In this document: positions 8,245 to 36,719 of the stretch, one piece after another
Layout of the letters: each line of letters opens with the position of its first letter
Position numbering within the stretch: the first letter of the stretch is position 1
Source: Neisseria sp.
Lineage (GTDB): Bacteria; Pseudomonadota; Gammaproteobacteria; Burkholderiales; Neisseriaceae
Direction: 5' to 3'
Assembly: GCF_030523955.1 (NCBI RefSeq)
Contig: NZ_JAUNHL010000023.1
Coordinates: 1 to 41,582 of the forward strand
Length of the DNA stretch: 41,582 bases
Translations under genes and position numbers: made by a program
The notes under the pieces: generated by a model
Seen by the model: only the letters and a program-made list of their open reading frames with translations
Database searches by the model: none
What the model was told of the DNA's origin: nothing

Positions 8245-9027
8245 ATGGCTCCGAAAATCAAACGACACGAACGCATTATTGCATTGGTACGCGAAAACGG
8301 CTTTATGCCGATCGAAGAGTTGGCGCGCCAGCTGGATGTAACCCCGCAAACCGTGCGCCGCGACATCAATCTTTTGTGCGAAGAGCACCTGCTGCGCCGT
8401 TACCACGGTGGGGCGGCTTTGGGCGAAGCGCTGGAAACCGAAGATTTCATGTTGCAAAAAAACAAGTTGCAAATCGAAAAAGCGCACATCGCTGATGCGA
8501 TTGCCGCGCATATTCCCGATAGAGCCACTCTGTTTTTAAGCATAGGCACCACTATCGAAGCGGTGGCCAATGCACTGGTGAAACAACGCAACGGGCTTAG
8601 CGTGGTGACCAACAATATCCATGTGGCCTCGATTTTGTCGGCGCGCAGCGATTATACCGTGATGATTACTTCCGGCGTGGTGCGTCCGGTCGACGGCGGC
8701 ATCACCGGCGTGGCCACGGTGGATTTCATCAACCAATTCAAAGTCGATTACGCCGTGCTGAGCGCTTCGGGTATCGAAGAAGACGGTACGCTGTTCGATT
8801 TCGATTACAAAGAGGTGAGCGTGATGCAGGCGATGATGCACAATGCGCGTACCCGCTATCTGGCTGCCGACAGCAGCAAGTTCGGCCGGCCGGCACTGGT
8901 GCGCATGGGTGATATTACCGAGTTTGATGCTTTGTTTACCGACAGTCCGATAGATGATGTGCTGGCCAAAAAGCTGGAGGATGCCGGGGTGGAGTGCGTG
9001 TTCGCCAGTCGTGAACTGGAGGGATAA
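8245..9027 (+). CDS. DeoR/GlpR-family transcriptional regulator
   Basis: The 260-residue protein has an N-terminal winged helix (residues about 5-58) with the diagnostic DeoR motif VTPQTVRRDINLLCEE and the RRYHGGA turn. A DeoR-C sugar-phosphate sensor domain follows, with LSIGTTIEAVANAL and the closing region TRYLAADSSKFGRPALVRMG. Such regulators respond to phosphorylated sugars or glycerol-3-phosphate. No target operon is adjacent, so its regulon is unknown. No in-frame ATG lies upstream before a stop at about 8218, which supports this start. It ends at a bidirectional DUS terminator shared with nhaD. Confidence 0.9.
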   Translation: MAPKIKRHERIIALVRENGFMPIEELARQLDVTPQTVRRDINLLCEEHLLRRYHGGAALGEALETEDFMLQKNKLQIEKAHIADAIAAHIPDRATLFLSIGTTIEAVANALVKQRNGLSVVTNNIHVASILSARSDYTVMITSGVVRPVDGGITGVATVDFINQFKVDYAVLSASGIEEDGTLFDFDYKEVSVMQAMMHNARTRYLAADSSKFGRPALVRMGDITEFDALFTDSPIDDVLAKKLEDAGVECVFASRELEG

Positions 9028-9065
9028 AACATTTCGGAACGGGTAACCGTGAGCCGGATTAAAAA

Positions 9066-9094
9066 TGCCTGTCTGAAAACTTTTCAGACAGGCA
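9066..9094. terminator. bidirectional TG-wadDUS pair terminator
   Basis: TGCCTGTCTGAA at 9066-9077 and its reverse at 9083-9094 form a perfect stem with a 5-base loop. A-runs and T-runs flank it on both sides. It separates the convergent regulator and nhaD genes. Confidence 0.85.
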
Positions 9095-9112
9095 TTTGTT
9101 TGGTTTAAATCA

Positions 9113-10531
9113 TCAGAACCATTGCCAGATAAAGAAAATAAAAGTATGTAATACAAACAACGGGCCCAAAATACCGAACGACCAGAGCATGTAACCGAAG
9201 AAGCTCGGCATCGCTACTTTACGCTGCTCGGCAATCGACTTCACCATAAAGTTCGGTGCATTACCGATATAGCTGAGTGCCCCCATAAATACCGAACCCA
9301 TGGAGATAGCCAACAGGGTATGGAAAAGCGGGCCGCTCATCAGGGATTGTGCGTCGCCACCAGCCATGTTGAAGAACACGAGGTAGGTTGGGGCGTTGTC
9401 GAGGAAGGCCGACAGGATACCCGTCATCCAGAAATAACGTGCATTAATCGGATCTCCGGCAGTATCGTGCACCAGAGAAATCAGGGGGGCAAAATGCCCG
9501 GCTTCACCGGCACGCAGGATGGCCAGTACGGGAGCAATGGTGATAAAAATACCGAGAAACAGCTTGCCGACCTCCAATATCGGATCCCAGTTAAATTCGT
9601 TGCCGGCACGTACCTGTTGCGGAGTCATTTTTAGTGAAACAATGGTTAGTCCGAGCAAAATCAGGTCGCGGGTAAGGTTTTGCAATTCATAAGGCGTACC
9701 ATAAATATCGAAGGAAACACCGGGTTTCCACAGACCGGACATCAACACCGCACCAACCACGCAGACCAATAATAGAAAATTGAATTTTCCATGGATTTGA
9801 GTAGGGCTGTCGGGAGTAGGGTCAAGCGGTTCCAGCTCGTCTTCCTTGCTGTAAAAATAGCAGTCGAGGAAGTAAAACAATACCAACAGAATCACGCTGC
9901 TGATCAATACGGGCGGCAACATATGTTTTACCGTCCACATAAAGTCCACGCCCTTCAAGAAACCGAGGAACAGCGGCGGATCGCCCAGGGGCGTGAGGCC
10001 GCCGCCGATGTTGGCCACCAGAAAGATGAAGAAAATCACTACATGTACCCGGTGCTTGCGGTTATCGTTAGCACGCAAAAGCGGGCGGATTAACAGCATG
10101 GCCGCACCGGTCGTACCCATAATCGAGGCCAGTACCGTACCGATGGCCAGAATGGCGGTATTGGTTTTCGGGCTGCCGTGCAAGTTGCCGGAAAGTAGAA
10201 TACCACCGGAAATGGTATAAAGTGCCAATAGCAAGATAATAAACGGGATATATTCGCCTACTAAGGCATGAACAACGGTACTTAATCCCGCGCTAAAACC
10301 AAATGTTGCGATAAAAGGCAATAAAAACAACAGCGTCCAGAAGGCGGTGATTTTTCCGAAATGATGATGCCATACATGCGGTAAAAACAGTGGAAATGTG
10401 GCGATAGAGAGCAGAATGGCGGCAAATGGCAGGCCCCATAAAAGGCTCATTTCCGCACCGTTCAATTCGGCGGAAAAAGCCAAACCGGGCATCAAACACA
10501 ATAAAGGCAATACAAGAGAAGACAGTCGCAT
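9113..10531 (-). CDS. nhaD: Na+/H+ antiporter NhaD family
   Basis: The 472-residue polytopic membrane protein belongs to the ion-transporter (citrate transporter-like) superfamily. It has the NhaD hallmarks: FPLFLPHVWHHHFGK near the N-terminus, ANIGGGLTPLGDPPLFLGF in the first transport repeat, and LDNAPTYLVFFNMAGGD plus GALSYIGNAPNFMVK in the second. A signal-like hydrophobic N-terminus precedes it. The function expected is Na+ or Li+ export in exchange for protons, for salt and alkaline pH tolerance. The ATG has AAGGAT at good spacing. Alternative: another cation antiporter of the same fold. Confidence 0.92.
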   Translation of the reverse strand: MRLSSLVLPLLCLMPGLAFSAELNGAEMSLLWGLPFAAILLSIATFPLFLPHVWHHHFGKITAFWTLLFLLPFIATFGFSAGLSTVVHALVGEYIPFIILLLALYTISGGILLSGNLHGSPKTNTAILAIGTVLASIMGTTGAAMLLIRPLLRANDNRKHRVHVVIFFIFLVANIGGGLTPLGDPPLFLGFLKGVDFMWTVKHMLPPVLISSVILLVLFYFLDCYFYSKEDELEPLDPTPDSPTQIHGKFNFLLLVCVVGAVLMSGLWKPGVSFDIYGTPYELQNLTRDLILLGLTIVSLKMTPQQVRAGNEFNWDPILEVGKLFLGIFITIAPVLAILRAGEAGHFAPLISLVHDTAGDPINARYFWMTGILSAFLDNAPTYLVFFNMAGGDAQSLMSGPLFHTLLAISMGSVFMGALSYIGNAPNFMVKSIAEQRKVAMPSFFGYMLWSFGILGPLFVLHTFIFFIWQWF

Positions 10532-22870: not shown

Positions 22871-22946
<76 letters not shown>

Positions 22947-22989: not shown

Positions 22990-24000
22990 TTAGTGTGCCA
23001 AATTTGTGCCATTTACCAAAACCATCTCATCAAGCAATGCTGCATGACCGTGTAAATGCTCGGTTGATAAATGGGCATATCGGCGAACCATCTCTATACT
23101 CTCCCATCCACCCATTTCTTGTAACGCAGCTAATGGCACACCGGCCTGAACCAACCAGCTCGCCCAAGTATGACGTAAGTCATGCCATCGAAAATCTGAG
23201 ATTCCCGCTTCCTCCAAAGCATTTCTCCAAATTCTCGAACTGATACTCTGAACCTTATTGCCGCTCGTGTTGGTAAATACATAACGGGCATGTTTGCCTT
23301 TCTGTTTTTCCAACACATCAACCGCCGTATTGTTCAATGCCACACCTAAAGCCTTACCCGACTTGCTCTCATCAGGAGAAACCCAAGCCGTCCGACTAGG
23401 CAAATCCACTTGTGACCAAGTCAAATCCATGACATTACGCTGCCGTAATCCTGTTGCCAAACTGAATACGACCATATCCGCCATATAAGGAGGCAATACT
23501 GCAATCAAACGGCTTGCCTCCTCTTTAGTTAGCCAACGGATACGTCTCTTAGGTTCCTTGTATAGTGTCAAGTGAGGGGCTCTATCCAACCAACCCCATT
23601 CTTTGACAGCCTTATTGAGTATTGCTCGGATAAGCGCAAGATAACGGTTTTTTGTGCTGTTGGAACACTTTTTTTGAGCAACTACGGCCATAATGAAATC
23701 ACGACTTAAGTGATGCAAATAGATTCCACGCAGTTCAGGTAAACCGCGCAATCTTGATAAATCCTTATCGATACTCTTTTTCGCGCCCATTTCATCGATC
23801 CACCGTATTGCCGCCTCTTCCCACAGTTTCCTCGGTTTCTCGTCAAAATGATTGGAAGACCATAATTCGTACTTCAATTTGTCGTAGAGTCTGAGGGCTT
23901 CTTCCTTGCTTTTGGTGCCAGTCGATTGTCTAATTCTTCTGCCGCTCTTTGTGGAAAGATCAACGTACCAGAATCCATTTTTTCGTTGATATATCGACAT
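22990..24000 (-). CDS. tyrosine-type site-specific integrase
   Basis: The 336-residue recombinase has the complete catalytic set: R186 (ATGLRQRN), H273 and R276 (WHDLRHTW), W299 (GGWES) and the nucleophile Y308 (VRRYAHL). The N-terminus is an arm-binding domain (YQRKNGFWYVDLSTKSG), followed by a SAM-like core-binding region (about 60-150). It is intact and of normal phage/island integrase length. It reads toward the adjacent tRNA and is overlapped at its 5' end by the excisionase-like gene, so int and xis are expressed together. Confidence 0.95.
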   Translation of the reverse strand: MSIYQRKNGFWYVDLSTKSGRRIRQSTGTKSKEEALRLYDKLKYELWSSNHFDEKPRKLWEEAAIRWIDEMGAKKSIDKDLSRLRGLPELRGIYLHHLSRDFIMAVVAQKKCSNSTKNRYLALIRAILNKAVKEWGWLDRAPHLTLYKEPKRRIRWLTKEEASRLIAVLPPYMADMVVFSLATGLRQRNVMDLTWSQVDLPSRTAWVSPDESKSGKALGVALNNTAVDVLEKQKGKHARYVFTNTSGNKVQSISSRIWRNALEEAGISDFRWHDLRHTWASWLVQAGVPLAALQEMGGWESIEMVRRYAHLSTEHLHGHAALLDEMVLVNGTNLAH

Positions 24001-24971: not shown

Positions 24972-25412
24972 TTACAGCTTAAGAATGAAAACCGCTACCA
25001 ACAGTAACAAGGCCCAAACTACGGTTGCAGTAAACAAATAGCGTTTCAAGGTCAACAATAGTTGGTTGACCTTACCCAACTCCGCAGTGATACGCCCAGA
25101 CACAGAGGCCACAATCTTATCCTCGACTTCAGACTGTAAACGATCAGCATGTGCTTGAATATCAGACAAGATCGCCGCTTTATATCCTCGGAGTTCAGCC
25201 GCGTCGCGGTTAATTGATTCCATGTGTCCCGCCAGATCGGCAATAAATGCTTGTCGTTCCAGCGACTGACGCTCCTCCATTGCGGATAACGACTCCTGCG
25301 TGGAGGTCAATTGCAACAGCAACACCGCCAAAATGGGATCATCATCCGTCAGACGTATACCCGAGATACGGAAAACCTCGCTGATAACTTTAGCCTTGTC
25401 CATATCAGCCAT
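24972..25412 (-). CDS. traM: TraM-like conjugal transfer protein
   Basis: The 146-residue protein is helical and coiled-coil-like over about 35-120, with a single C-terminal membrane helix (LFTATVVWALLLLVAVFIL, about 125-144). This layout and its position directly after traL match TraM of the IncP/RP4 relaxase operon (traK-traL-traM). Its start codon overlaps the traL stop by one base (TAATG), giving tight coupling. The precise role of TraM in conjugation is poorly known. The identification rests mostly on gene order and topology. Confidence 0.65.
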   Translation of the reverse strand: MADMDKAKVISEVFRISGIRLTDDDPILAVLLLQLTSTQESLSAMEERQSLERQAFIADLAGHMESINRDAAELRGYKAAILSDIQAHADRLQSEVEDKIVASVSGRITAELGKVNQLLLTLKRYLFTATVVWALLLLVAVFILKL

Positions 25413-26170
25413 TATTCGTCGCCTAAGTCGGAATTGGCCAAAACAGGCAATACGGCCATACGTTCAAATAAGTCTCGTTGCACATTGCGAAGGCGCTGGC
25501 GGGGCATCAGAGTAAAATCAGGTGATTGCTGCACTTCTGCAAAAGTCAGGTTAAGCGATGTCATGCGATCAATGTCTGCACCATAGGTGTCGGGATTGCG
25601 GTTGACGATGTGCACGATGCCAATAAAGCGCTGTTCATGGCTCTTATAGACCTTGAAGTCAGTAAACGTCTTACCGTCTCGCTCGACCTTGCCGTTATGA
25701 TCATTGATCCAAACGACCACCTCGGCATCGCTATCGATGTTGTTTAGGATATGGGCCAAACCCTCCATACAATCGGGGAGAGCCTGGCCGCCAGTTAAAG
25801 GCACATGAAGAATCAGGCGCACACCTGATTCACGCAGCAATTCCGGCACGCGGTTTTCTGCGAGGTATCCCATCAGCGGCACAAAAGTGGCCGCGCCGTT
25901 GTCGACCACACCAATCCCATCAAGCTCGATTATTTTTTCAATCAACGAGTCGAATCGGATGGAGTTAATGTTGTTGTGCTCGTCCATGATGTTGACGATT
26001 TCAGCATTGAGCGCTTTATAGCGTGAAAAAGTGCTGTTTACCGGATCCGTGTCATAGCAGTGTATGCTTTCATCGGGCAACTTGGTTTTCATATATTGAG
26101 CAATGATGGTGGAGATCAGTGATTTACCGACACCGCCTTTGCCCTGCACGATCAAATGTACTTCTTTCAT
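25412..26170 (-). CDS. traL: TraL-like ParA-family ATPase of IncP conjugation systems
   Basis: The 252-residue protein has a deviant Walker A motif QGKGGVGKSLIS at about residues 9-20, a DTDP motif near 41 and a GVVDNGAA Walker B-like segment. These features are shared by ParA/MinD ATPases and IncP TraL. It is followed by a traM-like gene in the RP4 order. RP4 TraL is an accessory of DNA processing whose exact task is uncertain. A partition ATPase remains an alternative, but the traM neighbour favours TraL. It is intact. Confidence 0.75.
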   Translation of the reverse strand: MKEVHLIVQGKGGVGKSLISTIIAQYMKTKLPDESIHCYDTDPVNSTFSRYKALNAEIVNIMDEHNNINSIRFDSLIEKIIELDGIGVVDNGAATFVPLMGYLAENRVPELLRESGVRLILHVPLTGGQALPDCMEGLAHILNNIDSDAEVVVWINDHNGKVERDGKTFTDFKVYKSHEQRFIGIVHIVNRNPDTYGADIDRMTSLNLTFAEVQQSPDFTLMPRQRLRNVQRDLFERMAVLPVLANSDLGDE

Positions 26171-26348: not shown

Positions 26349-26882
26349 CTATTGAACATCAACCCATTTGCCACCGTTCTTTTCCTCACCGACGTATTTG
26401 ACTCGTTCCGCGGCAGTGGTCCATTCGTGGTCAAAATAGGCGGCGCAATACGCCGGTTTGGTGTTGCGGATATAGGTCACCGCCACATCGTCATACCAGC
26501 CTTCACGGCCGCCTTTGCCAGCACGCACATATTTTTTGACGGTGTAGGTCGCCCGTCCCATGCGGTTGAGTTCGGCGGCATCACAACGACCGGCACCATT
26601 TACCAGTGCGTTTACCAGCGAATTCATATTCTGGTCCTGGTCACGTGGACACATATTTAAAAAGTCGCGGCGGGCGGAAAGAGTTTTATCCAAGCGTTTA
26701 TGCTTGATTGAAAAATACTTCTGAATAGACTCGTTGCACTCGCTCGGACGAGTGCCGCTAGACAAGCAGAGAATGGCTTCACAAGCCAACTTCGTATCAC
26801 CAGTGAGTTCTTCAGCTTGCGCAAAGGGAGACATAAAAAAAACGGCAACCGCCGTGGATACTGCGAAAATCTTTTTTATCAT
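26349..26882 (-). CDS. trbM: TrbM (KikA)-family conjugal transfer protein
   Basis: The 177-residue product has a clear Sec signal peptide with likely cleavage after AQA (residues 21-23). The mature start ELTGDTKLACEAILCLSSG and the cysteine pattern match the TrbM/KikA family encoded in IncP and related mating-pair regions. The protein is probably periplasmic and disulfide-bonded. It stands apart from traL by about 180 bases with a terminator between, so it is separately transcribed. Other mating-channel genes are absent, so this is a remnant or a mobilisable rather than self-transmissible element. Confidence 0.75.
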   Translation of the reverse strand: MIKKIFAVSTAVAVFFMSPFAQAEELTGDTKLACEAILCLSSGTRPSECNESIQKYFSIKHKRLDKTLSARRDFLNMCPRDQDQNMNSLVNALVNGAGRCDAAELNRMGRATYTVKKYVRAGKGGREGWYDDVAVTYIRNTKPAYCAAYFDHEWTTAAERVKYVGEEKNGGKWVDVQ

Positions 26883-27773: not shown

Positions 27774-29168
27774 TTAACTGCGGATCCGCTTCAACACTTC
27801 TTCTTTGCCGATTAGGGCCAGCACCGCGTCCACGCTGGGGGTTTTGGCCGTGCCGCATACGGCCAGGCGCAGGGGCATGCCGAGTTGGCCCATTTTGATG
27901 CCTTCGGCTTCGCAGAAGGGTTTGAATAAATCATGGATGGCCTCGGCATTCCAATCGGGCAGCGCTTCGAGCAGATCGGCGAAGCGGTGCATACGCGCGG
28001 GGGCTTCTTCGCTCCAGTGTTTCTGCACGTCTGCTTCGGCGGGTACGGCTTTTTGGTAGAAATACACGCACTCGTCGGCCAGCGTATTCAAATCTTGGGC
28101 ACGGTCTTTCACCAATGCCAGCACGTCTTCCAGCGCGGGTTTGTCGAGCACTTCCACGCCGCGCACCGCCAAGCGGGGTTTCACCAGCGCGGCGAGCGTG
28201 TCGTTGGGGGTGATTTTGATGTGTTCGCCGTTAATCCAATAGAGTTTTTTCAAATCCATGCGGCTGGGTGAGGGGGAAACGTCTTTCAAATCAAACCATT
28301 CGACAAATTGCTGCATGGTAAAAAATTCGTCGTCGCCGTGCGCCCAACCCAAGCGCGCCAGATAGTTGAGCATGGCTTCGGGCAGAATGCCCATTTGGCA
28401 GAAATCGGTGATGGACACGGTGTCGCCGCTGCGTTTGGAGATTTTTTTGCGGCGCTCGTTCAAAATCATCGGCAGGTGGGCATATTCGGGCAGCTTGGCG
28501 CCGATGACTTTTAAGATATTGATTTGTTTGGGGGTGTTGTTGACATGGTCGTCGCCGCGGATAACATGGGTGATGCCCATGTCGCAATCGTCCACCACCA
28601 CGCAGAAGTTGTAGGTGGGCGTGCCGTCGGCGCGGGCGATGATGAGGTCGTCGAGCGCTTCGTTGGGGATGCTGATTTCGCCTTTCACCAAGTCGTGCCA
28701 TTTGGTTACGCCCTCCAACGGGGTTTTGAAGCGGACAACCGGTTCGCGGCCGGCGGGGATTTCGGGCAGGGTTTTGCCAGGCTCGGGGCGCCAGCGGCGG
28801 TCGTAGGTGGCGGTGCCTTCTTTTTCGGCTTTCTCGCGCATGGCTTCCAGCTCTTCTTTGCTGCAATAGCAATGGTAGGCGTGGCCTTGCGCCAACAGCT
28901 CGGCAATCACTTCTTTATAGCGGTCGAAGCGGCGGGTTTGGTAGATAACGTTGTCGGCGTTGTCGTAATCGAGGCCTACCCAGTTCATGCCGTCTAAAAT
29001 GATGTTGACCGATTCGGCGGTGGAGCGCTCCAAATCGGTATCTTCGATGCGCAGCAGGAATTCGCCTTTGTGTTTTTTGGCAAAAGCCCATGAAAACAGG
29101 GCGGTGCGCACGCCGCCGATGTGCAGGTAGCCGGTGGGGCTGGGGGCGAAACGGGTTTTAACGGTCAT
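27774..29168 (-). CDS. gltX: glutamyl-tRNA synthetase
   Basis: The 464-residue class I synthetase charges tRNA-Glu with glutamate. The HIGH-type motif PSPTGYLHIGG is at about 9-19 and the KMSKS-type motif KISKRSG near 243-249. CYCSKEELEAMR and the C-terminal anticodon-binding domain are complete, so the gene looks functional. It is GC-rich and neisserial in style, unlike its AT-rich neighbours. It sits between two 46-bp repeats and is surrounded by AG-DUS. It could be the native copy replaced by recombination, or a second, acquired copy. Confidence 0.97.
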   Translation of the reverse strand: MTVKTRFAPSPTGYLHIGGVRTALFSWAFAKKHKGEFLLRIEDTDLERSTAESVNIILDGMNWVGLDYDNADNVIYQTRRFDRYKEVIAELLAQGHAYHCYCSKEELEAMREKAEKEGTATYDRRWRPEPGKTLPEIPAGREPVVRFKTPLEGVTKWHDLVKGEISIPNEALDDLIIARADGTPTYNFCVVVDDCDMGITHVIRGDDHVNNTPKQINILKVIGAKLPEYAHLPMILNERRKKISKRSGDTVSITDFCQMGILPEAMLNYLARLGWAHGDDEFFTMQQFVEWFDLKDVSPSPSRMDLKKLYWINGEHIKITPNDTLAALVKPRLAVRGVEVLDKPALEDVLALVKDRAQDLNTLADECVYFYQKAVPAEADVQKHWSEEAPARMHRFADLLEALPDWNAEAIHDLFKPFCEAEGIKMGQLGMPLRLAVCGTAKTPSVDAVLALIGKEEVLKRIRS

Positions 29169-29351: not shown

Positions 29352-29921
29352 ATGAAACTTGATCCATTAAACCTTGATTGGGATATTGAATACGAATTTA
29401 TTCTTAATAATGGTTCACCGATCGAACCCATCTTAATATTTGCCATACCTATCAGGAACAGAACGGTGTATATGCAACTCCCGTTTTACAAAGATTTATT
29501 TAGTGATGGTTACGTATTACTCATTGACCCATATAGATTTTTATCAGAATGGCGAAAATCTGAAGATGACAGCTACTTTTCAGGCTACCACCAAGGTAAC
29601 GAACAAATCTGGAGAGCAGACAAAAAATTCTCTTATTTGGAAGCGGGCTTCAGTAAAGGGGAAAAAATTTCCCATATCATCATAAACGGGCTTTTCTATG
29701 ATGCTCATACAGGAATAGGTTTCAATGATGGCTTAACAAGAACAATTTGGCTGCTGTCAAATGAAGCGGAATATATTCCTGTTTTTACCAATACACTTCC
29801 AAAAGCCGTAGATTTAAAAAAAATTGTAGGAAGAGAAAAATGCAGCATTTATTCTTGTGCAGACTTCCTTAATCATCATTTTGGGGTGCTGGATCAGGAA
29901 TATCAAAGGTTGATTCCTTAA
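29352..29921 (+). CDS. hypothetical protein, possible immunity or plasmid-interference factor
   Basis: The 189-residue product is acidic and aromatic-rich, with no signal peptide or membrane segment. It opens with MKLDPLNLDWDIEYEF and contains WLLSNEAEYIPVFT. The pattern faintly recalls plasmid fertility-inhibition factor-type proteins, but I cannot confirm this. The ATG follows AGGAAACGCCC. Its last 53 bases overlap the 3' end of the convergent gene at 29869-30252. AT content is higher than that of gltX, which suggests a separate origin. Confidence 0.6.
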   Translation: MKLDPLNLDWDIEYEFILNNGSPIEPILIFAIPIRNRTVYMQLPFYKDLFSDGYVLLIDPYRFLSEWRKSEDDSYFSGYHQGNEQIWRADKKFSYLEAGFSKGEKISHIIINGLFYDAHTGIGFNDGLTRTIWLLSNEAEYIPVFTNTLPKAVDLKKIVGREKCSIYSCADFLNHHFGVLDQEYQRLIP

Positions 29922-33393: not shown

Positions 33394-34167
33394 ATGCTTA
33401 TAGCCGACCTGCGCCACCATATGAACTCCAACCTCACTGTAATGTACGGTGAGTTTATGGCTATTTGCGGGCCAAACTTACAGGCGGCATCTCTTTTATC
33501 CAATTTGTTTTGGTGGTTGGATGTGGCCGATAAAAAATATCCTGAACGGCAGGGTTGGATTTACAAAACGGCCGAACAGCTGGAAGCAGAAATCGGTCTG
33601 ACTCGGCGCGGGTATGAAAAAGCCAGAAAGATGTTACTCAATCTGGGAATCATCAAATATAAACGCGCCCAAGTACACGGCAAGATGTTTTGGGCAATCA
33701 ACCGTGAAAAACTATTCGAGCTAATCTACAAAGTGCGTGGCGAAACGCCGCCCGACTTCGAGAGCGAGTATTACTCCGATGCCGACGGCTTTATGCTCAA
33801 TAAATGGATTCCCGAAGATCTCTGGAATGCCTATCTGAAAATGCGCCATCAGAAGAATGGCCGCCACGTCTCTCAAGCATCGAAAAAAATCCTCTACAAC
33901 CAACTCAGCGAACTGCATAAGAAAAACATCAACCTGCGTCAGGTGATGGAAAAGGCCATTGCAGGCGGCTGGGGCGGTTTTTATCCGCCAAATAAGGACT
34001 ACAACGCTCCGTCGCAGAAACAAGATACCCAACGCGAAGCGGAAGCAATCTGGAGCGGTCTGAAAGCCGACATAAAGGCACGCGAAACCAAGCCGCCGGA
34101 CAAAAAAGACCCTGAAAATCCCGGGCGGAAATCAATCCTTCAATTTATCAAAAAATCAGACAAATAA
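33394..34167 (+). CDS. replication initiation-like protein (winged helix)
   Basis: The 257-residue product has an N-terminal winged-helix region (KTAEQLEAEIGLTRRGYEKA, about 65-84) preceded by an aromatic helix (LLSNLFWWLDVADK), as in phage or plasmid replication and DnaD/O-type proteins. The C-terminal half is basic and disordered from about residue 205. It lies immediately after cro, where lambda has its replication genes. GC content is higher than that of cro. I cannot identify the exact family. An in-frame ATG 30 bases later is an alternative start. Confidence 0.65.
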   Translation: MLIADLRHHMNSNLTVMYGEFMAICGPNLQAASLLSNLFWWLDVADKKYPERQGWIYKTAEQLEAEIGLTRRGYEKARKMLLNLGIIKYKRAQVHGKMFWAINREKLFELIYKVRGETPPDFESEYYSDADGFMLNKWIPEDLWNAYLKMRHQKNGRHVSQASKKILYNQLSELHKKNINLRQVMEKAIAGGWGGFYPPNKDYNAPSQKQDTQREAEAIWSGLKADIKARETKPPDKKDPENPGRKSILQFIKKSDK

Positions 34168-34633: not shown

Positions 34634-34672
34634 TTGACAGCATTTAATCATGTATCTACAATGTAGATACAT
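34634..34672 (+). promoter_or_regulatory. promoter and palindromic operator of the mazE gene
   Basis: TTGACA at 34634-34639, 17 bp and TACAAT at 34657-34662 form a strong promoter. A 23-bp perfect palindrome at 34650-34672 (arms ATGTATCTACA/TGTAGATACAT around one A) covers the -10. This fits autorepression by an AbrB-type antitoxin complex. Confidence 0.75.
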
Positions 34673-34697
34673 AAATTACTCTAAAAGGATGCTTGCG

Positions 34698-34940
34698 ATG
34701 AAATTACAAAAATGGGGAAACAGCGCGGCGGTGCGCTTTCCCAAAGAGATTATCAGCCAGCTCGGATTGGAAATCGGCGATGAACTGGAAACTGAAATAC
34801 AAGGGCAGACGATTGTGATTAAAGCGGCCAAACGCCCGAAGTACAAACTGTCTGACCTGCTCGCAGAAATGCCCGATGGTATCCCCCGTGTCGAGGGCTG
34901 GGATAAAATGTCCGATATTGGCATGGAGGTGGCGAAATAA
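34698..34940 (+). CDS. mazE: MazE-family antitoxin
   Basis: The 80-residue protein has the AbrB/MazE swapped-hairpin N-terminus (LQKWGNSAAVRFPKEI, then LGLEIGDELETEI) and a toxin-wrapping C-terminal tail (LSDLLAEMPDGIPRVEGWDK). The ATG at 34698 is preceded by AAAGGA. An upstream in-frame frame opening at 34650 runs through the operator and is rejected. The stop overlaps the ATG of the mazF remnant by one base, the typical coupled layout. Since the toxin is deleted, it is now an orphan antitoxin. Confidence 0.85.
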   Translation: MKLQKWGNSAAVRFPKEIISQLGLEIGDELETEIQGQTIVIKAAKRPKYKLSDLLAEMPDGIPRVEGWDKMSDIGMEVAK

Positions 34941-35054: not shown

Positions 35055-35390
35055 TTAAATATAATCATCGAGGTTGAATTCTTCATTTTTCCATCCTGAT
35101 GAAGATTGATCGGTATTGCCGCCGGGGGAGGATGGCCTTTCTCCAGCTGGGGAGATTTTTGTTTGTACCTTTTTTTGAGGTGTCTTTTTATCAGATCGGT
35201 TACGGATAAACCAGTTCAACGTTGTCATTCCGACGACAACGTCATTCATTTTCAGGAAATCCAAGATCTGCTGTTGTGTATAGCCATGTGTTTTTAGTAA
35301 CAGGATGTCATCTTGAAACGGATCCAGTTTTGATTTTCTACCGGTTTGGTTTTCCTTTTTCATGAACTCTTGTGCAGATATTTTAGCCAT
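35055..35390 (-). CDS. small HTH DNA-binding protein, StbA-like in layout
   Basis: The 111-residue protein has a basic N-terminus (TGRKSKLDPFQDD), one helix-turn-helix at about 26-66 (THGYTQQQILDFLKMNDVVV then TTLNWFIRNR), a disordered proline/serine linker and a short acidic tail (NEEFNLDDYI). This is the layout of plasmid StbA and TraK-type DNA-binding proteins. Its start codon sits 10 bases from a roughly 320-bp array of helically phased ATCTA-like sites, strongly suggesting that it binds them and controls its own promoter. StbA of R388 likewise binds 11-bp-spaced repeats beside its own gene and secures plasmid segregation. The assignment is an inference. Confidence 0.55.
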   Translation of the reverse strand: MAKISAQEFMKKENQTGRKSKLDPFQDDILLLKTHGYTQQQILDFLKMNDVVVGMTTLNWFIRNRSDKKTPQKKVQTKISPAGERPSSPGGNTDQSSSGWKNEEFNLDDYI

Positions 35391-35400
35391 TTAAAATCCA

Positions 35401-35722
35401 ATCTATTAATATCTATAAAAATCTATTAAAAACATATTTATAACTATTATAGACTAAAAGCATCTATTTGTATCTATAAATAATCCAAATTAAATCCAAA
35501 TAAATAACAATAAATATCTAATATAAACAATATAAATCTATATTAATAAATTTACCATCTATATATATCTACCAAATAACTATATAATTAACCATATATT
35601 ATCTATATATATCAACATAGTATCAATAATTAACAGCTTAAAATCGAATATAAATCCAATTATTATCTAATATAATCTATTTATATCTACTAATATCAAT
35701 CAAAAATCTATCGTTATATCTC
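35401..35722. repeat. helically phased array of ATCTA-like pentamers (candidate partition site)
   Basis: ATCTA begins at 35401, 35411, 35421, 35462, 35472, 35516, 35536, 35557, 35567, 35601, 35665, 35675, 35685 and 35706. ATCCA begins at 35483, 35494 and 35654; ATCAA at 35611, 35622 and 35695; ATCGA at 35643; ATCTC at 35718. Weaker forms fill the gaps at 35431, 35442, 35452, 35506, 35526, 35578, 35590 and 35632. Thirty units, all in one orientation, are spaced 10-12 bp (mean about 10.6), with one slot empty near 35546. The stretch is over 80% A+T and has no gene. Confidence 0.85.
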
Positions 35723-35744
35723 AAAATAAAAAGGCAACTTCTCC

Positions 35745-35756
35745 GTACGCGCGTAC
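35745..35756. repeat. 12-bp perfect GC-rich palindrome next to the array
   Basis: GTACGCGCGTAC lies 23 bases after the AT-rich array and contrasts sharply with it. A second small palindrome, GGCAC-GAG-GTGCC, lies at 35821-35833. They may mark a protein site or the array boundary. Confidence 0.45.
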
Positions 35757-35886
35757 CTCCTTCTTGCTTTTTAACGAAAAATCAGCCCAATACAACCATT
35801 ATTAAACTAAACGCAGGATAGGCACGAGGTGCCAAAAAACGCCCTAGGGTCTGTCGACATTCAAGTTTTCAGTGTATCCTATCCAC

Positions 35887-36255
35887 ATGACCAGATATAT
35901 TCTTACCGATGCACAGTGGGCAAAAATTGAGCCTTTATGCCAAGGAAAAGTTGGCGATGCCGGCCGAACCGCTGTCGATAACCGATTATTTATAGAAGCC
36001 ATACTATGGATTATCCGTACCGGCAGTCCTTGGCGCGATCTGCCCGAAGAGTTCGGTAATTGGAAAAGTATCCACAAACGCTACCGCAGATGGGTCTTGG
36101 CCGACCGTTTTCATCATATTTTTGAAGAACTGAACCGTGATCTCGATATGGAGTATGTCATGATTGACGGCACAATCATCAAAGTTCACCGCCACGGTCA
36201 GGGTGCAAAAGGGGGACTCGAAATCAGGCCATCGGCCAATCCAAAGGCGGGATGA
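35887..36255 (+). CDS. IS5-family transposase, N-terminal part (ORF A)
   Basis: This 122-residue frame starts at MTRYILTDAQWAKIEPL, the usual beginning of IS427-group transposases. It contains the helix-turn-helix region (WRDLPEEFGNWKSIHKRYRR) and the first catalytic aspartate in VMIDGTIIKVHRH. The frame ends just after GAKGG. Slipping back one base at the G-run continues into the ORF B sequence TRNQAIGQSKGG, restoring the family consensus. An in-frame ATG at 35872 is less likely as a start. Confidence 0.85.
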   Translation: MTRYILTDAQWAKIEPLCQGKVGDAGRTAVDNRLFIEAILWIIRTGSPWRDLPEEFGNWKSIHKRYRRWVLADRFHHIFEELNRDLDMEYVMIDGTIIKVHRHGQGAKGGLEIRPSANPKAG

Positions 36256-36638
36256 CGACCAAGATTTTGGCTATGGTGGATGCTTTAGGGAACCTGATTG
36301 ATTTCAAACTAATGCCTGGTCAGCGCAATGATATTTGCGGCGTAGAGCCGCTGATTAAAGACAAGGAATTTGATGCTTTGTTGGCGGATAAAGCCTTTGA
36401 TGCCGACTGGCTGGTCGAAGAGCTGACCGAAAGGGGGAGTAAGGTGGTTATTCCGCCGCGTAACAACCGTAAATCCCAGCGGGAACACGACAAGATGATG
36501 TATTGCTGGCGGCATTTGATTGAGAACTTTTTTTGCAAACTCAAAGAATTCAAGAAGATTGCGATGCGCGCAGAAAAAACCGACCAATCTTTTGCTGCCA
36601 ATATTTACCTTGCGGCTGCCGTATTGAAATTAAGGTAA
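36252..36638 (+). CDS. IS5-family transposase, C-terminal part (ORF B)
   Basis: The 128-residue frame carries the rest of the DDE catalytic triad: the second aspartate in LLADKAFDADW and the glutamate in HLIENFFCKLKEFK with the following Y/R-type context KIAMRAEKT. It overlaps ORF A by 4 bases in the -1 frame. Expression is probably as an A-B fusion by programmed frameshifting rather than from its own ATG. No inactivating change is seen. Confidence 0.85.
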   Translation: MTTKILAMVDALGNLIDFKLMPGQRNDICGVEPLIKDKEFDALLADKAFDADWLVEELTERGSKVVIPPRNNRKSQREHDKMMYCWRHLIENFFCKLKEFKKIAMRAEKTDQSFAANIYLAAAVLKLR

Positions 36639-36658
36639 ACTTGAATGTCGGCAGACCC

Positions 36659-36719
36659 TAAAGGCGTTTTAAAAATTCCGCCCAAAGGCGGAAACGCCGC
36701 GAAAGCGGCTGTCCCATAA
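36659..36719. other. IS flank with small hairpins
   Basis: The right half of the interrupted hairpin (GGCGTTTT) is followed by TTCCGCC/GGCGGAA (36676-36692) and GCCGC/GCGGC (36696-36709). No gene. Confidence 0.4.

Follow-up and report, generated by a model that had tools for sequence, protein, structure and literature searches.

The stretch of DNA considered here (the window) is the 41,582-nucleotide contig NZ_JAUNHL010000023.1 of Neisseria sp. (assembly GCF_030523955.1), contig C53 of its genome. It carries a gene for a 111-residue helix-turn-helix (HTH) protein, beside it an array of about 30 short words repeated once per helical turn and, 88 bp past the array end, a sequence containing what we take to be the nic core of MOBP plasmids (TATCCTG/C; a copy was also seen in the RP4 sequence). 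We consider it likely that the array serves a StbA/TraK-like protein as its binding region, beside the origin of transfer (oriT) of a Neisseria integrative and conjugative element (ICE) whose relaxase is of MOBP type and whose type IV secretion system (T4SS) is of virB type; the proposed roles are in coating, repression and maintenance. That phased repeats beside oriT are bound by StbA-type proteins is already known; the new part is the diversity of words across related elements. Neither the array in Neisseria elements nor a spread of different words was found in searches of an open-access library in which many subscription journals are missing.

The array lies between a candidate nic core and the HTH gene

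Between 35401 and 35722, a C-centred word, mostly ATCNA and on one strand, occupies 30 of 31 consecutive helical turns. A stepwise walk from 35403 in steps of 10-12 bp gave 30 such words and a single empty turn near 35549; 22 of the words are ATCNA or ATCTC and eight are weaker (seven AACNN and one GACTA), the same count as in an earlier note on this DNA, which had described some 30 ATCTA-like words in one orientation. An additional ATCCA, at 35396, lies 5 bp off the phase set by 35401, and additional ATC at 35699 and 35710 are likewise out of phase. Over 35392-35730, ATCNA occurs 23 times on the plus strand and never on the minus strand (dinucleotide shuffles: mean 8.2, maximum 18). Within the same limits and for periods of 10-12 bp, the phase power of C positions reaches 18.5 at 10.7 bp (highest of 2000 dinucleotide shuffles: 9.9), and that of ATC reaches 13.1 at 10.6 bp (highest shuffle value: 9.1); the spectral peak is at 10.65 bp for both. 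The array has 47 C against 7 G, and when 47 Cs were placed at random the observed phase power was never matched in 20000 trials. A sliding scan of the whole window (1376 segments of 330 bp each) gave 10.4 for the array and 6.3 for the best of 1353 non-array segments. The existence of the array is confirmed by these observations, as is the periodicity beyond that of shuffled sequence anticipated in the earlier note.

The order of nic core, phased array and HTH gene is kept in relatives. A (C/T)ATCCTG(C/T) core is present at most 700 bp upstream at 33 of 52 distinct homologue places; the 19 others include two with too little upstream sequence, and nine of them are plasmid records (L052, L074-L079) and class-level loci (L061-L062). 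Judged by this motif, the HTH gene would border a putative oriT whose nic site lies across the array from it.

At its other end, the array comes within only 6-15 bp of the HTH-gene start codon and probably holds the promoter of the gene; a promoter scan of 35300-35850 returned five promoter-like sites against 5.1 expected, no excess over chance. This position would suit an operator that serves only the autoregulation of the HTH gene and plays no part in transfer or maintenance, but some 30 turns far exceed what an operator needs and the distance from nic to array is alike in most loci measured, so that we give such a restricted function little credence.

Further features were seen around the nic core. 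In the window, an insertion sequence (IS) parts it from the remainder of a block conserved in relatives. At a greater distance from the nic core, the upstream blocks of L005, L006 and L008-L011 have in common a long inverted repeat around CGGGGGCGG, itself containing an inner repeat AAAGTCCAGAC...GTCTGGACTTT; a hairpin RNA or a second recognition site is possible. In L040, an abortive-infection-type gene (8329-9381, minus strand; phrog_2158, E 2.2e-51) lies about 0.3 kb past the nic core of that relative's element.

Different words in related elements

We compared 32 nic-to-start regions, the window's included, and counted a region as phased when no more than 5 of 100 shuffles attained the value of its top phased word. 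By this test 23 of the 32 regions pass, in a set that includes near-identical relatives and whose members are hence not independent. The clear words of relatives have periods near 10.4-10.8 bp, and a GC-containing 5-mer exceeds power 4.5 in 25 of the 32 regions. Among 19 places without an exact CCTATCCTGC core for which enough upstream sequence was available, four (L015, L075, L076 and L078) have a phased word whose value no more than 1 of 60 shuffles attained.

In a matrix of 16 loci, picked for clear words, every group phases just its own word. By recognition helix, TAGAT goes with GMTT/GLTT, TAGAA with SKTALHH, TTGTA with SQQALNR, TTCGA with TQSTLNW, TGCAT with NQSTLHR and TGGTA with TRKTLHA. 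Five of these six words are from Neisseriaceae, and TGCAT is from Advenella plasmids, with just three exact copies in L053 and six in L054. The relation between helix and word is not one to one, because L017, whose helix is SQTALNY, also uses TAGAT. Across the 25 of 32 loci past the power cut, a Mantel-type test gave a correlation of 0.60 between array distance and recognition-helix distance (reached by 0 of 5000 permutations), which falls to 0.27 with the rest of the domain held fixed (17 of 5000); the rest of the domain, given the helix, correlates at 0.47. These values support covariation of the words with the whole protein; covariation with the helix that goes beyond relatedness is supported in part only.

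Three genomes have two well-separated loci with clear arrays, and the words differ each time (TAGAT/TAGAA in G029 and in G048, TAGAT/TTGTA in G016). Copies about 2 kb apart in one locus share a word (TAGAA twice in G029, a TAG/TAGA-type word twice in G050), as expected if such copies belong to one element. In L044 (8780-10761, G029), the HTH gene and its TAGAA array form a tandem duplicate, about 1.6 kb apart. Searching the array DNA against plasmids returned four records, of which three match the nic block only (two N. lactamica, one Kingella) and one, from Psychrobacter, matches the array.

The diversity of words bears on whether the array is simply curved DNA read by H-NS-like host proteins, its phasing a mere by-product of curvature. 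The array is 83% A+T over 327 bp and its TT dinucleotides are phased too (10.65 bp, power 9.0), RP4 phases AAA, and four of the 23 passing regions (L004, L026, L028 and L068) have AAA or TTT as their top word, although the first three of these phase a GC-containing word as well. However, AAA and AAAA in the array peak at 11.8 and 10.15 bp, off the word period, and TTGTA, TTCGA or GCAT is phased in other elements, so that the word, and not A-tracts alone, is conserved. Curvature or H-NS by itself would leave the differences between elements unexplained, and we consider this explanation unlikely.

The HTH protein and the element that carries it

In a fold comparison, the predicted model of the 111-residue protein had R388 StbA (7pc1) as its best PDB match, a weak one (root-mean-square deviation 6.9); no ParR or ParB was among the matches listed, which excludes nothing. 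The protein has no match to NF041290 (NCBIfam StbA_2), on which R388 StbA itself reaches just 19.2 bits (cut-off 100). Members of the family directly precede stbB/TraL in a Sulfuriferula plasmid and a Vibrio plasmid. From the weak fold match, the weak sequence similarity and this gene position in plasmid relatives, the protein would work most like StbA/TraK; we do not claim formal membership of the curated TraK or StbA families. The layout of ParABS or ParMRC systems, a motor gene beside an adaptor gene and a centromere, was not found at the HTH gene, whose neighbours are a MazE-type gene and the IS. As a single query, the protein found nothing in viral contigs and three phage matches, all with E 0.8, and a profile search of 369 class-level genomes gave three matches, the source genome included.

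Integrase, relaxase, coupling protein and VirB4 are all encoded in the genome, across two contigs. Contig C28 has VirB4, VirB6/8/9/10/11-type genes and a coupling protein. It also encodes a relaxase that shares 80% identity with the relaxase of genome G010; the G010 protein scores 97.1 bits against MobP1 (below the cut-off of 200). Using blastn matches of at least 150 bp, C28 7351-32096 and C53 38230-22871 are collinear in one run on the G010 chromosome, where the counterpart is a single contig; one short C28 match is out of order and one short C53 match is inverted. Because of this collinearity we infer a single ICE split over C28 and C53. We reject a plasmid, the context first proposed for the array, in view of the integrase beside tRNA-Met and the match to the chromosomally integrated G010 element, and an integrative and mobilizable element (IME) lacking its own T4SS in view of the C28 genes, collinear with G010. 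As a correction to the minimal segregation system of the earlier note, the element does carry a TraL/StbB-type ParA-like ATPase (Table 1). Among picked genomes, VirB4 was found in seven of eight with the HTH gene and in neither of two without it. The distance between VirB4 and the HTH gene in G048 is about 1.46 Mb, which places VirB4 outside the HTH-gene element; in G049, which has the HTH gene, VirB4 was not found, so some relatives may be IMEs.

The C53 part of the element also encodes an S24-type repressor. Its second gltX shares 96% identity with a gltX copy that the genome carries on contig C81, and the stretch in the ICE has no blastn match in the compared G010 region. The fertility inhibition factor may hinder other conjugative elements. 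The lambda-O-like initiator gene, about 1.2 kb from the array, raises another explanation, in which the array would be the replication origin of the excised ICE, as iterons or as a landing pad for this initiator; AT-rich repeats would suit an unwinding element. Against this, the phased words of relatives lie between nic core and HTH gene (the only interval tested there), the words change along with the HTH protein, and the TrfA iterons described for IncP-1, which are 17-mers (PMC2848598), are longer than a step of one turn. Given the distance of the lambda-O-like gene and the variation of the word with the HTH protein, iterons are less likely, and we see only a slim chance for an origin of replication.

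Table 1. Coordinates of the array, the HTH gene and other features in the window
Feature	Position	Strand	Remarks
tRNA-Met at element end	22871..22946	+	matches end of G010's element
Tyrosine integrase of the ICE, adjoining tRNA-Met	22990..24000	-	PF00589, E 7.3e-35
Gene right after TraL, in TraM/StbC position	24972..25412	-	no convincing family match
TraL/StbB-type ParA-like ATPase	25412..26170	-	NF010461, E 5e-74, 248.7 bits (below 360-bit cut-off)
TrbM	26349..26882	-	PF07424, E 2.7e-45
Second glutamyl-tRNA synthetase (gltX) in the ICE	27774..29168	-	
Plasmid fertility inhibition factor, inside the ICE	29352..29921	+	PF22162, E 1.9e-20
Lambda-O-like replication initiator	33394..34167	+	phrog_678, E 9.2e-19
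MazE-type antitoxin	34650..34940	+	PF04014, E 4e-11
StbA/TraK-like HTH protein, 111 residues	35055..35390	-	predicted helices 6-14, 23-34, 39-48, 55-65, then low-confidence linker and tail
Phased word array, about 30 one-turn words	35396..35722	-	TAGAT in the sense of the HTH gene, ATCTA on the plus strand; recomputed from sequence
MOBP-type nic core GCCTATCCTGCGT (13 bases)	35811..35823	-	unique in genome; relatives also have the ATCCTG core upstream of the HTH gene
Small hairpin GGCACCTCGTGCC	35821..35833	-	overlaps nic core by 3 bases; seen in sequence
IS4/IS5-type insertion sequence	35845..36660		two overlapping transposase open reading frames, 24-bp ends

Proposed role in transfer and maintenance

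The nearest known systems are those of R388 (IncW) and RP4 (IncP-1). In R388, StbA binds its own repeats, two sets of five 9-bp repeats with 2-bp spacing, by way of which it affects transfer and, in large part, stability; the order is again nic, array, gene (PMC3098194). R388 and the element of the window both have the HTH protein gene beside oriT (putative in the window) and a ParA-like StbB, and both have direct repeats in one orientation at one-turn spacing (in R388, eight TGATGC-like words between 702 and 831 of L056, with 11 bp for five of the seven steps). Unlike the R388 repeats, the array of the window extends over 30 turns with a 5-bp AT-rich word at 10.65 bp, in an ICE, and the HTH gene is not in an operon with TraL/StbB. 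In RP4, the oriT DNA bound by TraK is curved and about 200 bp long, and TraK represses the promoters on either side (PMC7314908). The order nic, binding region, gene is shared with RP4 (traJ, nic, 235 bp, traK), as are TraL and a MOBP-type relaxase; the C-terminal F-x-[FW] tail seen by eye in RP4 TraK and many family members differs in the window protein, and the phased word of RP4 is AAA. Among Neisseriaceae, ICEriNK and ICENmu likewise have an MPF-T secretion system, a MOBP relaxase and a terminal integrase, and ICEriNK is also at a tRNA gene, tRNA-Asn rather than the tRNA-Met used here (PMC7371117).

By our reading of the array as a StbA/TraK-like binding region beside oriT, one HTH domain would sit on each turn, on one face of the DNA, and 20-30 copies would join cooperatively into a filament that starts about 90 bp past nic and extends as far as the start codon. 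This filament would repress its own promoter and keep oriT silent or bent, restraining it while the ICE is integrated, and could serve as a handle guarding the excised circular ICE against loss. By analogy with what is reported for R388, the TraL/StbB-type ATPase would counteract the filament and permit transfer. The word would have diverged between ICE families together with its protein. Autoregulation and cooperative binding, both put forward in the earlier note, are supported as the likely use of the array. For the segregation role also put forward there, upkeep of the excised circle is what we retain; conjugation control is at least as likely, because the array lies between the nic-like site and the gene. 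An ICE that is integrated does not have to be segregated separately, so the day-to-day role is probably, in the main, control of transfer.

Several results weigh against this reading. Besides the non-independence of the regions and the four with AAA or TTT as top word, nine of the 32 regions fail the phased-word test (L014, L019, L020, L023, L025, L027, L030, L031 and L064), a GAT-only test over 350 bp upstream is passed by 11 of 30 (at most 15 of 300 shuffles), and a phased word was found in three of nine regions of RP4-type plasmids, two of these nine being doubtful (in L094 the nic motif is 583 bp away, and the L095 region is 105 bp). The expectation that homologues keep an adjacent array thus meets a mixed outcome that does not refute it. 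In a de novo word search, the known repeats of R388 were not significant (14 and 22 of 100 shuffles reached the value); a null there is therefore no proof of absence. As to the protein, the 7pc1 match is within 1 Z of two for other HTH proteins; no Pfam or NCBIfam family matches it, PF17273, which matches RP4 TraK, included; its sole PHROG match, of unknown function, is weak (E 0.022); and profile comparison gave StbA a probability of 14% and TraK one of 43.5%. The StbA-like assignment of the earlier note is supported by the weak fold match, the weak sequence similarity and the gene position in plasmid relatives. In the window no stbB/traL gene directly follows the HTH gene, which lies about 9 kb from TraL and shares no operon with it, and the IS begins about 20 bp past the nic core.

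Our results point to a likely oriT and a silencing/maintenance complex in Neisseria ICEs of a kind in whose published description the words oriT and TraK have no match in the main text (PMC7371117). More tentatively, and we hold this to be rather doubtful, each StbA/TraK-like protein might polymerise solely on its own word, distinct oriT codes preventing cross-silencing or cross-tethering among co-resident Neisseriaceae ICEs; if so, differing words would mark ICE compatibility groups. The six words beside related HTH proteins are a natural experiment in how a short protein reads a helical-face code, and matched and mismatched pairs of word and protein would open to testing a long-standing question, namely how StbA/TraK-like proteins can restrain transfer and at the same time stabilise DNA.
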